Below are positions 16,877 to 35,153 of a DNA stretch of 64,000 bases, one piece after another. The notes under the pieces are model-generated. The model was not told the DNA's origin. It was given only the letters and a program-made list of their open reading frames with translations, and did no database searches. Every line of letters starts with the position of its first letter. Within the stretch, counting starts at the first letter, position 1. The stretch is from Brachycybe producta (taxonomy: Eukaryota > Arthropoda > Diplopoda > Playtdesmida > Andrognathidae): NCBI GenBank assembly GCA_036925085.1, contig JAUPFP010000008.1:4737277-4801276 (forward strand), read 5' to 3'. The position numbers were made by a program, and so were the translations under genes.

Positions 16877-19176
16877 TCAATTAAGATTTTTCTGCTGCTT
16901 CAGTTCCTTGCTGCCGGGAACAACACCCCAGTTCTCGGGCTGCGACATGCTAGCGGAATACGGACGTCCAGAAGCCGGTCTGATGTTTTCCCAATATTGG
17001 CGGTTCGCTCTGACATAAATTCATAGTGATAACATGTGTAAAAATGACCTGATCTGACAATCATCTAATAAAAATCGTATTACCTCTCTCGCACCCACGG
17101 CTTCGTGTGCATCTTTAGGCCAGCAGCCCACGGATCGTGCTTCTCGGATCCCTGTGGTAGGTGACCTCTCTCCGGAGCCAATTCTTCGGCAATAGCTCGA
17201 ATATGGAAGGCTTCGAAGCCACAGCAGCCTCCAATGTATCGAACTCCAAGTTCGTATGCCTTTCTTGCAAAAGCATGAATGTCCCATCTGGTGCAAGTAC
17301 GAGCTTCGAGGGCTAAAACAGATTTAATGGACTAGTTAAACAAATTACTTCATTAATTAAATAATTAATTCGAGAACAAAATTACCAAATGGAAATTCGG
17401 GCAAGTCAATAAATCCTTGTCGGCCGGCATCGGGTGTATGAAGTGCCAATGGTTGACACATGAGGTAAGCCTTAAGTCCAGCATGTTCCAAACCATGTTT
17501 CATTAATCGGACAGTTTCCAATGATCGTTGAGGATCAAAATGGCAGTTTACACCGACAATGTTTGCACCTTTATTGCAAAATTAAAAACTTCATTAATAA
17601 AAAGAAAATTTGCAAATTTTTTCGAAAAAGGTTACCAGCTCTGGCCATGCGAACTGCACATTGATCAGCAGGTACTCCATGTAAATCTCCATCTGGACCA
17701 ATGCACATAGTGGCTGCGACAGCTTTGCCGGTAGCCTTGCATACTTCAATGGCCCACTCAATTTCTTCAACGTGTTCGAAATACTGGAAAAAAAACAATA
17801 GATAAAACAATTTTCTGAAGCAGAGTGCAAAAACTTCAAAATTGTTATGTTGTATATGATTTTTTAAATATCACAACGAAAACACGTGCAGTATATTCAA
17901 TTAGCACCCTTCAGTGGCTAACTAAAAGTGCCAAAAATAACTTTTTTGATATTATGGACTTTACAAAGCTTTAAATTTGTCACTTCTGGGAACAGATAAG
18001 CCCTCCTGAGTCTTTTTCATGGCATTTAACGACTTAGATTTTTTGCCTCAAAACTTCTGAGACTGTTTGTCTGCATTCTGTTAACAAATATACTAATGAG
18101 CCTCTACCAATCTCTTTAAGTAAATTCGTAAGCCACAATAAATGTAAAATTAAATTTAATCAAGGTTTATATAAATATTCTCTCCCCTCTAAAAAGAAAA
18201 ACAATTCTCACCTCACAAAGTAAAAAGTCCACGTTATTTTCTACAAAAGCATCCACTTGCTTCTTGAATTCTTGCTGGACAGCTGCCTTCGGTTCACCAG
18301 ATAGGTATGAAGGAGTCTGGCTAAGTCCTCCCAAAACCAAAGCATTACCTTCGGCTGCAACTTCTCTGGCAATTTTGCAAGAAGCAGCATTAACTCCACG
18401 AACCTAACATTCAATAGATTTCAATAGAAACTTAATATGTGAAGCAGTTCAAGAAAATAATATTTAATTATTCAAAATGTACCGTGTGCTTCTCTGCTGC
18501 CTTGTTGCCTCGATTGTCCAGTTTGTCTTCACTGGCATAGAAGGTAAATGCTTGCAAGACATCCGAACCAGCCCTTAAAAATTCTCTATGTAGCTGTTTC
18601 ACTATAAAATATCCAAATTTTAATAAATAAATATTAAAACATATTTATGTATAATTTCATAAAACGTACCAGCTTCTGGGTGTTCAACACTGGCTTCTGG
18701 AGTCCAGGGACCAGCTTTAACGTAGCCTCTCTTCTCCAACTGCCACACATATCCACCATCACCAATGACAACACCTTCAGCCAAACGCTCCAAAATTCCC
18801 TTGAAAAAAAATGATATAAGTTGGTTTGAGGTTATGATTCCCAGCTGTGACCAAAAGACTTTTGTCAATAGGTCAAGAGCCATAAGTACTATTTTGAACA
18901 ATCATGTTTCTTCAAGCATATTCTATTTGAGACATAACAAGTTTGTTGTTGTCTCAAATTTATTTTACATGCTACGTTTCTCAAAATATCTTAAAAAATG
19001 CGTATTTCTTATAATGAAAGAAATAATGAAATTTAAAAGTTGCATAAGAAATTGATAATTAAAGATCCAAGAAAGACCAATAATAAATACTGAAAATATT
19101 TTTATAGTAAATTTCGATTTTTAAATTTATGATGTGCATTGTGTCATTTAAGCAAGATTACCTTTCTAGCACTCAT
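16877..19176 (-). CDS. BHMT: Betaine-homocysteine S-methyltransferase, copy 1 (382 aa, complete)
   Basis: Zinc enzyme that transfers a methyl group from betaine to homocysteine, giving methionine and dimethylglycine. Exons in gene order: 19162-19176, 18670-18799, 18483-18601, 18212-18403, 17636-17783, 17386-17568, 17084-17312 and 16877-17009; all phases agree. It aligns with human BHMT at a constant offset of 7: Asp19 in GDGG, Trp37, Tyr70, Tyr153 (human Tyr160), and zinc ligands Cys210 (GVNCHFDP) and Cys292/Cys293 (GGCCGFE). The C-terminal tail keeps the vertebrate-like NWGV...ELKQQK segment. The start MSARK is followed at once by a GT donor, as in the other copies. Of the three copies it is the most like canonical BHMT, and the best candidate for the ancestral activity. 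Confidence 0.95.
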
Positions 19177-19263
19177 TTCTACACTTTAATAGATAAAGTC
19201 AAAACACTAATTGACTCTTCAAATGACCAACTAAAACTGCGATAACTATGATAAAATCAAGCG

Positions 19264-32600: not shown

Positions 32601-35153
32601 ACGGTATCGTAAAACGAAAACCGAATAACCTAGTTTCTGGCACCGTGTTTTATTAGAAAGTTTTCCGTAGAGATTATTTGTTTGCAAAAGCGAGAGAATC
32701 ATATGGGTTAAATAACGCCGTACCGTATCCTAAAGAAGAACGTTGGGCCGCACGACCCACTAGTCGAGTGAGTGGAGTCTACGAGAAACTAATTCAGAGA
32801 GGCGCTCATATGTCGATTCATGCTGGTTTGTTTCATCAGCATAATTTTTCACATTGAAAAATTGTCACATTTTTCAAACACCAAATTCCATAGGGTGGGA
32901 ACAAGCAGCTTGGTTTGCACTTTCTGGCGATGATGACGGTTACAAACCGAGTTTTCGTCGAACAAACTGGTTCGAACCTGTTGGAAGAGAATGCGATACG
33001 GTTGTGAACCACGTTGGTATCATTGATCTTACTCCGTTTGGAAAGTTTAAAGTAGCAGGTTCAGAAGCAACACAATTCCTAGATCGAATCTTGGCTAACA
33101 ATATACCAAAAGTAAATTTAATAAAATAAACTTAAGGTTTTGGCACATGAAGCACTTTTTAAGGGTTGAGTTGGACTGCAAAATGTAGTCGGCGTGTCGC
33201 TTGCGTGCAAATGTCCGACGCCTTTCCATAGCAATGCATTGCAACCACTGTCCAACCATTTGCAGCCAAATCAGACCACTGAGAAGTGATCCACGTGCTC
33301 TTAGAAATCAGTTGACTTCTTAGCTTTCTACAGATTTGTTTTTGTTTGTACTCAAGATAGGACAAACAAACATCAGTCACCTTTTGACACCAAAAGGAAA
33401 AGTTTACGCAGAACTTACTGTATCCCAACTCGAGCAAGATAAATATTTCTGTATTACAGGATCGGGATCCGAATTGCATGACCTTAGGTACACTGCAGAC
33501 GAGATTCTTAAACTAAGGCGTTTTGATATAAACAAATCACATTCAAAATTAGATGGATGGAAGAAATTGCATCAAAAGAAGGTTTTGATGTTACGATATC
33601 AAACGTGACCGACACTACTGCTTGCCTCGGTATTGCTGGTCCATTTTCAAGAAAGGTTTTAACCGAACTGACAGATCAAGATCTTAGCCAACAATCATTT
33701 CCATTCATGACTGCAAAGTCCATCTCTTTGGCCGGCATTCCTGTTCTAGCAATCCGTATTTCATATACAGGTGAAGATTTTATTAATTTTTTAAAACGTT
33801 TTACCTACAGAAATTCATATAAATTATGTTGTACTTAAATTGTCAGGTGAACTTGGTTGGGAGTTATATCACGAGCCGATTCATTCTCTAAAACTTTACG
33901 AAGCGCTTCTCAAAGTTGGTGCAACCCACAAAATTGGTGACTTTGGTACAATTGCTCTCAACTCGCTACGCATCGAAAAAGGATTCAGAGCCTGGGGTAG
34001 CGAGGTAATAATCACAAAACCTATGAATAAATAACGAAATAATTCAGATCGTACCAGCAAATTAATAGTTACTGAAATCTTTTTGTAAACTTAAGATGAC
34101 AGTGGATACAAATCCAATCGAAGCTGGTCTAAGTCACTTCATAAAGCTTAATAAGGTTAGTATTATTTACAATTTTATATATGTGGCAGAAAATATCTTT
34201 CAAAAGAGGGTCACCAAGCTTTGCTCAGATTTCTGGAATAAATAGCTGAAGTTTTTAGCAGCTAGTTTTGAGGAAGAAGTTTGAACCCAATTTTTAGCTA
34301 GTGGCTAACGGTTAGGGTCTATTGATCTTTGTAGTATAGTTATGTATTTAGAAACGGTGGTGCCGAGAAGATAGTTAGATGATAGCTTTTCTTGAGATGG
34401 GTTGGCGGAGCTAGCATAGTTCCTGCACATTTTTAAAGACGCCCCCCAGCCCACATGTTCCGGACAATACTTTCGTGTTTTCTTTTCAGATTTTTCTTTC
34501 ATTTACGATTGCACTCAGAATATTATTAAATTATTAATATTTCTAGAAAGATAGTTATTTTATTAAATATACTCAAATTTAAAATTGTAGTACACTAAGG
34601 CCCGTATTTAAGAAGGTATCATGGCATTTTAACTTAAATTCGAACCCTCTGCGCAGGGCTGTAAAATAAGAAAAATCTGTCCAAGGGTACTAAAGGGTTT
34701 TACTAATTTATGTTAAATATTATTCAAGTTGAAGATCAAGTGATAAATTCTTCTGAGATTTGTTTCACAGAAAACTAATTTCATTGGAAAAGAAGCTCTT
34801 GAAGATATTGTCAGGCAAGGACTGTCAAAGCAATTAGTACATTTAAAAATCGAAACATCCGATGTTGATCCTGAAGGAAATGAAACAATATGGTGCGCAA
34901 ACAAGGTAAAAAAAACGTGATTAACTTACCATGTCATTCACTTACCGCTTCCGTACTTCTTGATAAGGTTGTTGGATACACCACATCGGGTTGCTACGGC
35001 TATCAAGTGAACAGTAGTTTGGCAATGGCATATCTTCCACCATACTTGGCAGTTCCAGAGTCCGAGGTGTATGTCGAACTATTGGGTGACAAGAGAAAGG
35101 CTACAGTTCTACCACATCCACCAGTGCTTCCAGAACACTCGAGATCTAACTGA
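29621..35153 (+). CDS. DMGDH: Dimethylglycine dehydrogenase, mitochondrial (845 aa, complete)
   Basis: Flavoenzyme that oxidises dimethylglycine to sarcosine, with tetrahydrofolate accepting the one-carbon unit. 17 exons: 29621-29682, 30264-30441, 31095-31193, 31290-31454, 31514-31718, 31810-31919, 32005-32143, 32214-32412, 32484-32603, 32671-32825, 32894-33111, 33357-33487, 33553-33770, 33847-34004, 34096-34155, 34771-34905 and 34968-35153. The FAD motif GGGAVG is at 44-49, and His79 in GSTWHA corresponds to the covalent FAD site. It carries an oxidoreductase half and a C-terminal GcvT-like folate half ([31 protein letters not shown]). DMGDH is preferred over sarcosine dehydrogenase because of [17 protein letters not shown] and [10 protein letters not shown]. 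Exon 1 is predicted: it is basic and Ser/Thr-rich like a mitochondrial presequence, and its phase fits exon 2. Intron 4 uses a GC donor. Confidence 0.94.
29779..30205. mobile_element. hAT-like MITE in DMGDH intron 1
   Basis: 427 bp bounded by CAGAGATGG and CCATCTCTG, continuing inward with ACAGTAGT-like and ACTACTG-like matches. The 8-bp flanks TCAATAAC and TCATAAAG match at 5 of 8. It makes up about three quarters of intron 1. Confidence 0.6.
31455..31513 (+). other. GC-AG intron of 59 bp in DMGDH
   Basis: The donor is GAG|GCAATT and the acceptor is AAAGCAG. Protein alignment (NTRE then VLGGLYNP) and phase require this junction. The nearby GTAAAT would shift the frame and add extra residues. 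Confidence 0.75.

Follow-up and report, generated by a model that had tools for sequence, protein, structure and literature searches.

The genes BHMT and DMGDH, whose products would act in succession in betaine breakdown, stand side by side in the millipede Brachycybe producta: has this linkage come down from a remote ancestor of bilaterian animals, or has the same pair been brought together more than once? We analysed a 64,000-nucleotide stretch of the genome (the window), corresponding to positions 4737277-4801276 of contig JAUPFP010000008.1 (C8, 7,424,172 bases) in an assembly of 295.3 Mb and 442 contigs. The identity, integrity, order and spacing of the genes, as well as the duplication history of BHMT, can be read directly at this locus, where three tandem BHMT genes adjoin a single DMGDH gene. 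We judge it reasonably probable that this is a working betaine cluster in which the third BHMT gene and DMGDH are co-regulated, that the linkage descends from a remote bilaterian ancestor, and that BHMT was duplicated in tandem later in this lineage. We prefer this reading because the gene models are intact, the facing start codons lie close together, no other BHMT and no other close DMGDH was found in the genome by protein search, the genes are clustered in mammals as well, and the estimated probability of a chance encounter is low.

A divergent array of BHMT and DMGDH genes

Four gene models were assembled manually, combining translations of all six frames with homology and splice-site evidence, and their lengths and stops were rechecked; since exon ends were fitted to GT-AG and to the related proteins, their agreement with GT-AG is partly by construction. 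None of the four models contains an internal stop or frame break. The models bear out the first-pass annotation, which had described three tandem BHMT genes on the minus strand adjoining one DMGDH on the plus strand, in gene identities, order, orientation and spacing, and both its span (16877-35153) and its distance of 623 bp between the BHMT-3 and DMGDH start codons are exact. In window coordinates, the features are:

19176..16877, minus strand: BHMT-1 (B1), 8 coding exons, 382 amino acids; matches rat and human BHMT in PDB
23790..21660, minus strand: BHMT-2 (B2), 8 coding exons, 370 amino acids, short C-terminus
28997..27275, minus strand: BHMT-3 (B3), 8 coding exons, 380 amino acids; C-terminal tail unlike mammalian BHMT
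28998..29620, no strand: divergent intergenic region between B3 and DMGDH, 623 bp; putative promoter
29621..35153, plus strand: DMGDH, 17 coding exons, 845 amino acids; DAO, FAO_M, GCV_T and GCV_T_C domains

Intron phases (0, 1, 0, 0, 1, 1, 2) are common to B1, B2 and B3, and their eight exons agree, in exon count alone, with BHMT exons being numbered up to 8 in PMC4516251. The least certain exon is the first of B1 (MSARK at 19176), which was inferred and chosen among short candidates. In DMGDH, a 59-bp intron (31455-31513) has a GC donor at 31455 (GC-AG), the only intron of this gene to need one. An assembly or contamination artefact, in favour of which no point was found, is extremely improbable for a window that contains no N, lies on a 7.42-Mb contig and combines intron-rich genes with animal-type flanking genes.

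Against PDB, B1 scored 617-606 bits to rat and human BHMT; methionine synthases and a homocysteine methyltransferase reached no more than 64 bits. Identity to human BHMT is 264/379 (70%) for B1, 236/369 (64%) for B2 and 239/376 (64%) for B3, which also matches Pfam S-methyl_trans at 154 bits; whole-length similarity places B1 by its bit scores, and B2 and B3 by their 64% identity to the human protein, with BHMT above the methionine synthases. DMGDH matched three DMGDH sequences in PDB at 1181, 1178 and 1177 bits, with the next match, dimethylglycine oxidase, at 340, and is assigned by this whole-length similarity above its oxidase relatives together with its DAO and GCV_T domains; as regards sarcosine dehydrogenase (SARDH), its PDB matches included no structure of that enzyme. 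The protein also carries a basic N-terminal extension, a putative mitochondrial presequence.

Elsewhere in the genome, where match counts for repeats and large families are minimum values, a protein search with BHMT-1 found no further BHMT in the 295 Mb, all 21 reported matches falling in B1-B3. The same type of search with DMGDH revealed no second close DMGDH: 16 of the 24 reported matches lie in the gene itself, and the remaining eight, located on C66, C16 and C5, are 28-52% identical and possibly represent SARDH and relatives. At the level of families, FAO_M has five matches in the whole genome and the methyltransferase family PF02574 has eleven, three in B1-B3 and eight on C2 and C36, at places that the search with B1 did not recover.

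As judged from homology, BHMT would transfer a betaine methyl group to homocysteine, yielding methionine and dimethylglycine, and DMGDH would then demethylate the dimethylglycine, presumably in the mitochondrion; these activities, including the use of betaine as methyl donor, are predicted from sequence. B3 and DMGDH would start from one short common region, from which they are probably co-regulated. TATA-like motifs occur in this region at 29095 and 29263 on the minus strand and at 29258 on the plus strand, while a sigma-70 scan gave two sites versus 4.3 expected, a result that is uninformative for an animal.

Origin of the linkage

In animals and fungi, genes that form a conserved divergent pair tend to have related functions (PMC2871058). 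With divergent orientation and start codons 623 bp apart, B3 and DMGDH fall within the 1 kb that delimits such pairs, and they resemble pairs of the HSPD1-HSPE1 type (PMC2871058) in joining functionally linked genes across a short intergenic region, here in one genome only; neither BHMT nor DMGDH is named in the text of that paper. The locus would belong to a known class, that of divergent pairs which are conserved and whose genes are linked in function. Clustering of these genes in mammals is already in print.

The first-pass annotation had likened the array to human DMGDH, BHMT2 and BHMT, as neighbours in the same head-to-head order. As to orientation, we assume here that human BHMT and DMGDH do lie head-to-head. 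Its linkage part stands, with human BHMT, BHMT2 and DMGDH lying within about 200 kb at 5q14.1 (PMC4740183) and the mouse genes being 'clustered in close proximity', with SPIC sites shared at adjacent enhancers (PMC11801372). The mammalian cluster and the one described here share BHMT-family genes linked to DMGDH and tandem BHMT copies, in addition to the assumed divergent order, but differ in extent, at about 200 kb in human (PMC4740183) versus 18 kb here, and in their BHMT copies, which arose independently there and here (PMC4516251). For invertebrates, no report of BHMT-DMGDH linkage was found in the part of the open-licence literature matches that was inspected, which is weak evidence of absence.

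A neutral accident, in which the genes are chance neighbours here and the likeness to mammals is meaningless, would fit the neighbouring genes in the window, which encode a Cys-loop ion channel and a semaphorin and have no link to the pathway. We nevertheless hold it to be improbable: the prior for one named pair is low, a spacing of 623 bp was found in a 295-Mb genome, and we estimate a chance divergent neighbourhood of this pair, assuming 15,000 genes, to be of the order of 1e-5 to 1e-4.

Several observations weigh against our preferred reading of common descent and co-regulation. Our comparison covers this one invertebrate genome and the published mammalian linkage. The divergent region contains no CpG island, its observed/expected ratio being 0.46 versus 0.80 for the window. 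We take the neighbours of the human cluster to be HOMER1, of the WH1 family, and ARSB, of the sulfatase family; none of the six WH1 and none of the 14 sulfatase matches in the genome lies on C8, and therefore no wider conserved block backs common descent. Among the listed open reading frames of at least 60 amino acids in 80 kb of flanking sequence, none was recognised by eye, with no family search run on them. Finally, bacteria also contain pairs of such related genes, so that clustering can recur. On a Terrarubrum plasmid (L053, 5391-8996), a DMGDH-like oxidoreductase of 803 amino acids, identical to the millipede DMGDH at 276/781 positions (35%), a small DUF1289 gene and the BHMT-family gene bmt form one run after sarcosine oxidase genes, and in Roseobacter a BHMT candidate adjoins DMGDH and SARDH (PMC3141670). 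These bacterial operons resemble the millipede locus in placing a BHMT-family gene beside a DMGDH-like gene; they differ in that their genes are co-directional, their BHMT is 26% identical, and sarcosine oxidase genes or SARDH lie alongside.

Convergent clustering would mean that the pair joined independently here and in vertebrates, under selection for co-regulating consecutive steps of betaine breakdown in osmolyte removal and methionine supply. The bacterial arrangements, with only the small DUF1289 gene between bmt and the DMGDH-like gene in Terrarubrum and with the neighbouring genes in Roseobacter (PMC3141670), speak for it, as does the absence from C8 of the families of the human neighbours, and the response of sea louse BHMT to low salinity (PMC12069450) offers a plausible selective reason. 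Yet it requires this pair, in what we assume to be one and the same orientation, to have arisen twice in animals, and a DMGDH-like neighbour stood beside bmt in only one of the six plasmid loci opened (out of 354 records with a match), the other five being judged by annotation and length. We therefore regard convergence as unlikely, although clearly less so than an accident.

Transfer of a bacterial operon was also considered and rejected, as the plasmid matches of B1 fall below 60% identity in 354/354 records (23-29% among the 40 listed) and the window genes are intron-rich. No relative was found in viral contigs. The only match among the genome contigs searched covers 19 residues in a contig of a bacterial metagenome-assembled genome (L009, Hyphomonadaceae), which ends in a stretch resembling an animal BHMT exon (4574-4642); the likeness is lost in translation immediately after WVRAR, and we took the stretch as probable animal contamination or a chimera and left it unused.

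Inheritance of the BHMT-DMGDH linkage from a remote bilaterian ancestor, with the mammalian cluster as another descendant, appears to us the most likely origin.

Duplication and divergence of the BHMT copies

The first-pass annotation had proposed gene trees of both families; the comparison was run for BHMT, with human and rat as the only outgroups. Identity among the millipede copies is 77-91% (B1-B2 285/370, B1-B3 292/377, B2-B3 338/370) versus 64-70% to human BHMT. The three resemble one another more than any of them resembles human BHMT and therefore multiplied within this lineage. Synonymous divergence (dS) is 0.152 between B2 and B3, with a non-synonymous divergence (dN) of 0.048, while B1 is near saturation against B2 or B3 (dS 2.9 and 2.3). 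A relative-rate count of 22 versus 15 sites, with gap columns dropped, gave no significant sign of faster evolution of B2/B3 (chi-square p 0.25). Read from these sequences, B2/B3 is a young duplicate, the blocks being:

21191..24829, no strand: B2-side copy of the duplicated block (B2 and its upstream region; younger copy), from local matches
26795..29556, no strand: B3-side counterpart (B3 plus the greater part of the region between it and DMGDH), from local matches

Five colinear local matches, 76-85% identical, join the two blocks. What was copied is a BHMT gene with most of the divergent region, ending 64 bp short of the DMGDH start codon and leaving DMGDH out. B2 and B3 align well near the BHMT start, including the TATA-like motif (29095 in B3), but their global alignment is poor far upstream because of insertions; the extent of the block to 29556 rests on the local matches. 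Tandem duplication occurred at least twice later in this lineage, the latest event being recent and carrying most of the divergent promoter with it.

Upstream of B2, near-palindromic stretches at 24446-24657 and 24059-24223 are self-complementary at 79% and 74%, and may be foldback elements that entered once the duplication had taken place. Intron 4 of B2 carries about 335 bp (22606-22939) that are absent from B3 (443 versus 96 bp). Between B2 and B3, a 200-residue open frame (26125-26724) looks by eye like the end of a long interspersed nuclear element, with no Pfam match.

We take the zinc ligands of BHMT to be cysteines 217, 299 and 300, and its active-site residues to be Asp26, Trp44, Tyr77, Glu159 and Tyr160. 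In alignment to the human protein, Cys217, Cys299, Cys300, Asp26, Trp44, Tyr77, Glu159 and His338 are kept in all three copies. B1 has all five active-site residues and B2/B3 four, with Tyr160 replaced by Met/Leu; B2/B3 are further changed at Glu162 (Ala), His163 (Asn) and the hook residue Tyr363 (Gln/His), and in B3 only, Leu replaces His218. The C-terminal oligomerisation helix of BHMT comprises residues 381 onwards (PMC4516251). B1 can be aligned to about residue 387 of 406 in human BHMT before it ends, and B2/B3 have no segment similar to the helix of mammalian BHMT.

Mammalian BHMT2, a duplicate found only in mammals, is short, uses S-methylmethionine as donor and lacks nine N-terminal residues (PMC4516251). 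B2/B3 resemble it in lacking the C-terminal helix and in being tandem duplicates that adjoin BHMT, but differ in their separate duplication and in an intact segment around human residues 80-95; the nine-residue deletion was not seen in B2/B3, as aligned to human BHMT rather than to BHMT2. With B1-B3 mutually closest and BHMT2 confined to mammals (PMC4516251), true BHMT2 is rejected and B2/B3 are at most BHMT2-like. Their loss of the helix and of Tyr160 suggests a partial parallel to BHMT2.

Elsewhere among invertebrates, BHMT is reported from three crustaceans and one myriapod, and not from the surveyed hexapods, chelicerates, nematode or Daphnia (PMC9409210). The mud crab has three BHMT coding sequences of 1203, 1092 and 1107 nt (PMC9409210), that is, one long and two shorter forms as in the millipede, compared by coding lengths only; from these lengths, a short BHMT form may be old in arthropods.

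In a bolder form of the ancestral reading, a head-to-head 'micro-operon' predates the protostome-deuterostome split, its flanks were reshuffled, and independent duplications of BHMT, one in mammals and one here, both produced a copy with a shortened C-terminus and an altered active site. We offer this version tentatively, as a possibility that falls somewhat short of being probable.

Surroundings and significance

The cluster is flanked by a gene for a Cys-loop ligand-gated ion channel with Neur_chan domains (9570-15165, plus strand) and by a semaphorin gene with a Sema domain (about 46962-49754, minus strand), for which one of two exon matches is under the curated cut-off. At 62765-63856 on the plus strand lies a 364-residue open frame that carries Retrotrans_gag and zinc-knuckle domains.

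Contig C442 (15,359 bases) of the assembly is mitochondrial. Its COI contains 13 TGA codons and four AGA codons at positions where Ser is a good reading, fitting the invertebrate and not the vertebrate code. By eye, the order is COI, COII, ATP6, COIII, ND3, ND6, CYTB, ND2, a gap, ND4L, ND4 and ND5, with ND1 on the opposite strand, which in our view resembles, short of proof, a rearranged arthropod order. COI-like stretches also occur on C1 (12697416-12698753) and C17 (3332011-4029047) and are probably nuclear mitochondrial insertions.

If the BHMT-DMGDH pair is ancestral, two enzymes of one pathway would have been held together in animals for more than 500 million years, with shared regulation as the presumed cause. 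Next to B2, the partial copy of the promoter would constitute a natural experiment on the BHMT half without DMGDH, and B2/B3 would provide an independent comparison for a BHMT that loses its oligomerisation helix and maybe changes its methyl donor, like mammalian BHMT2.

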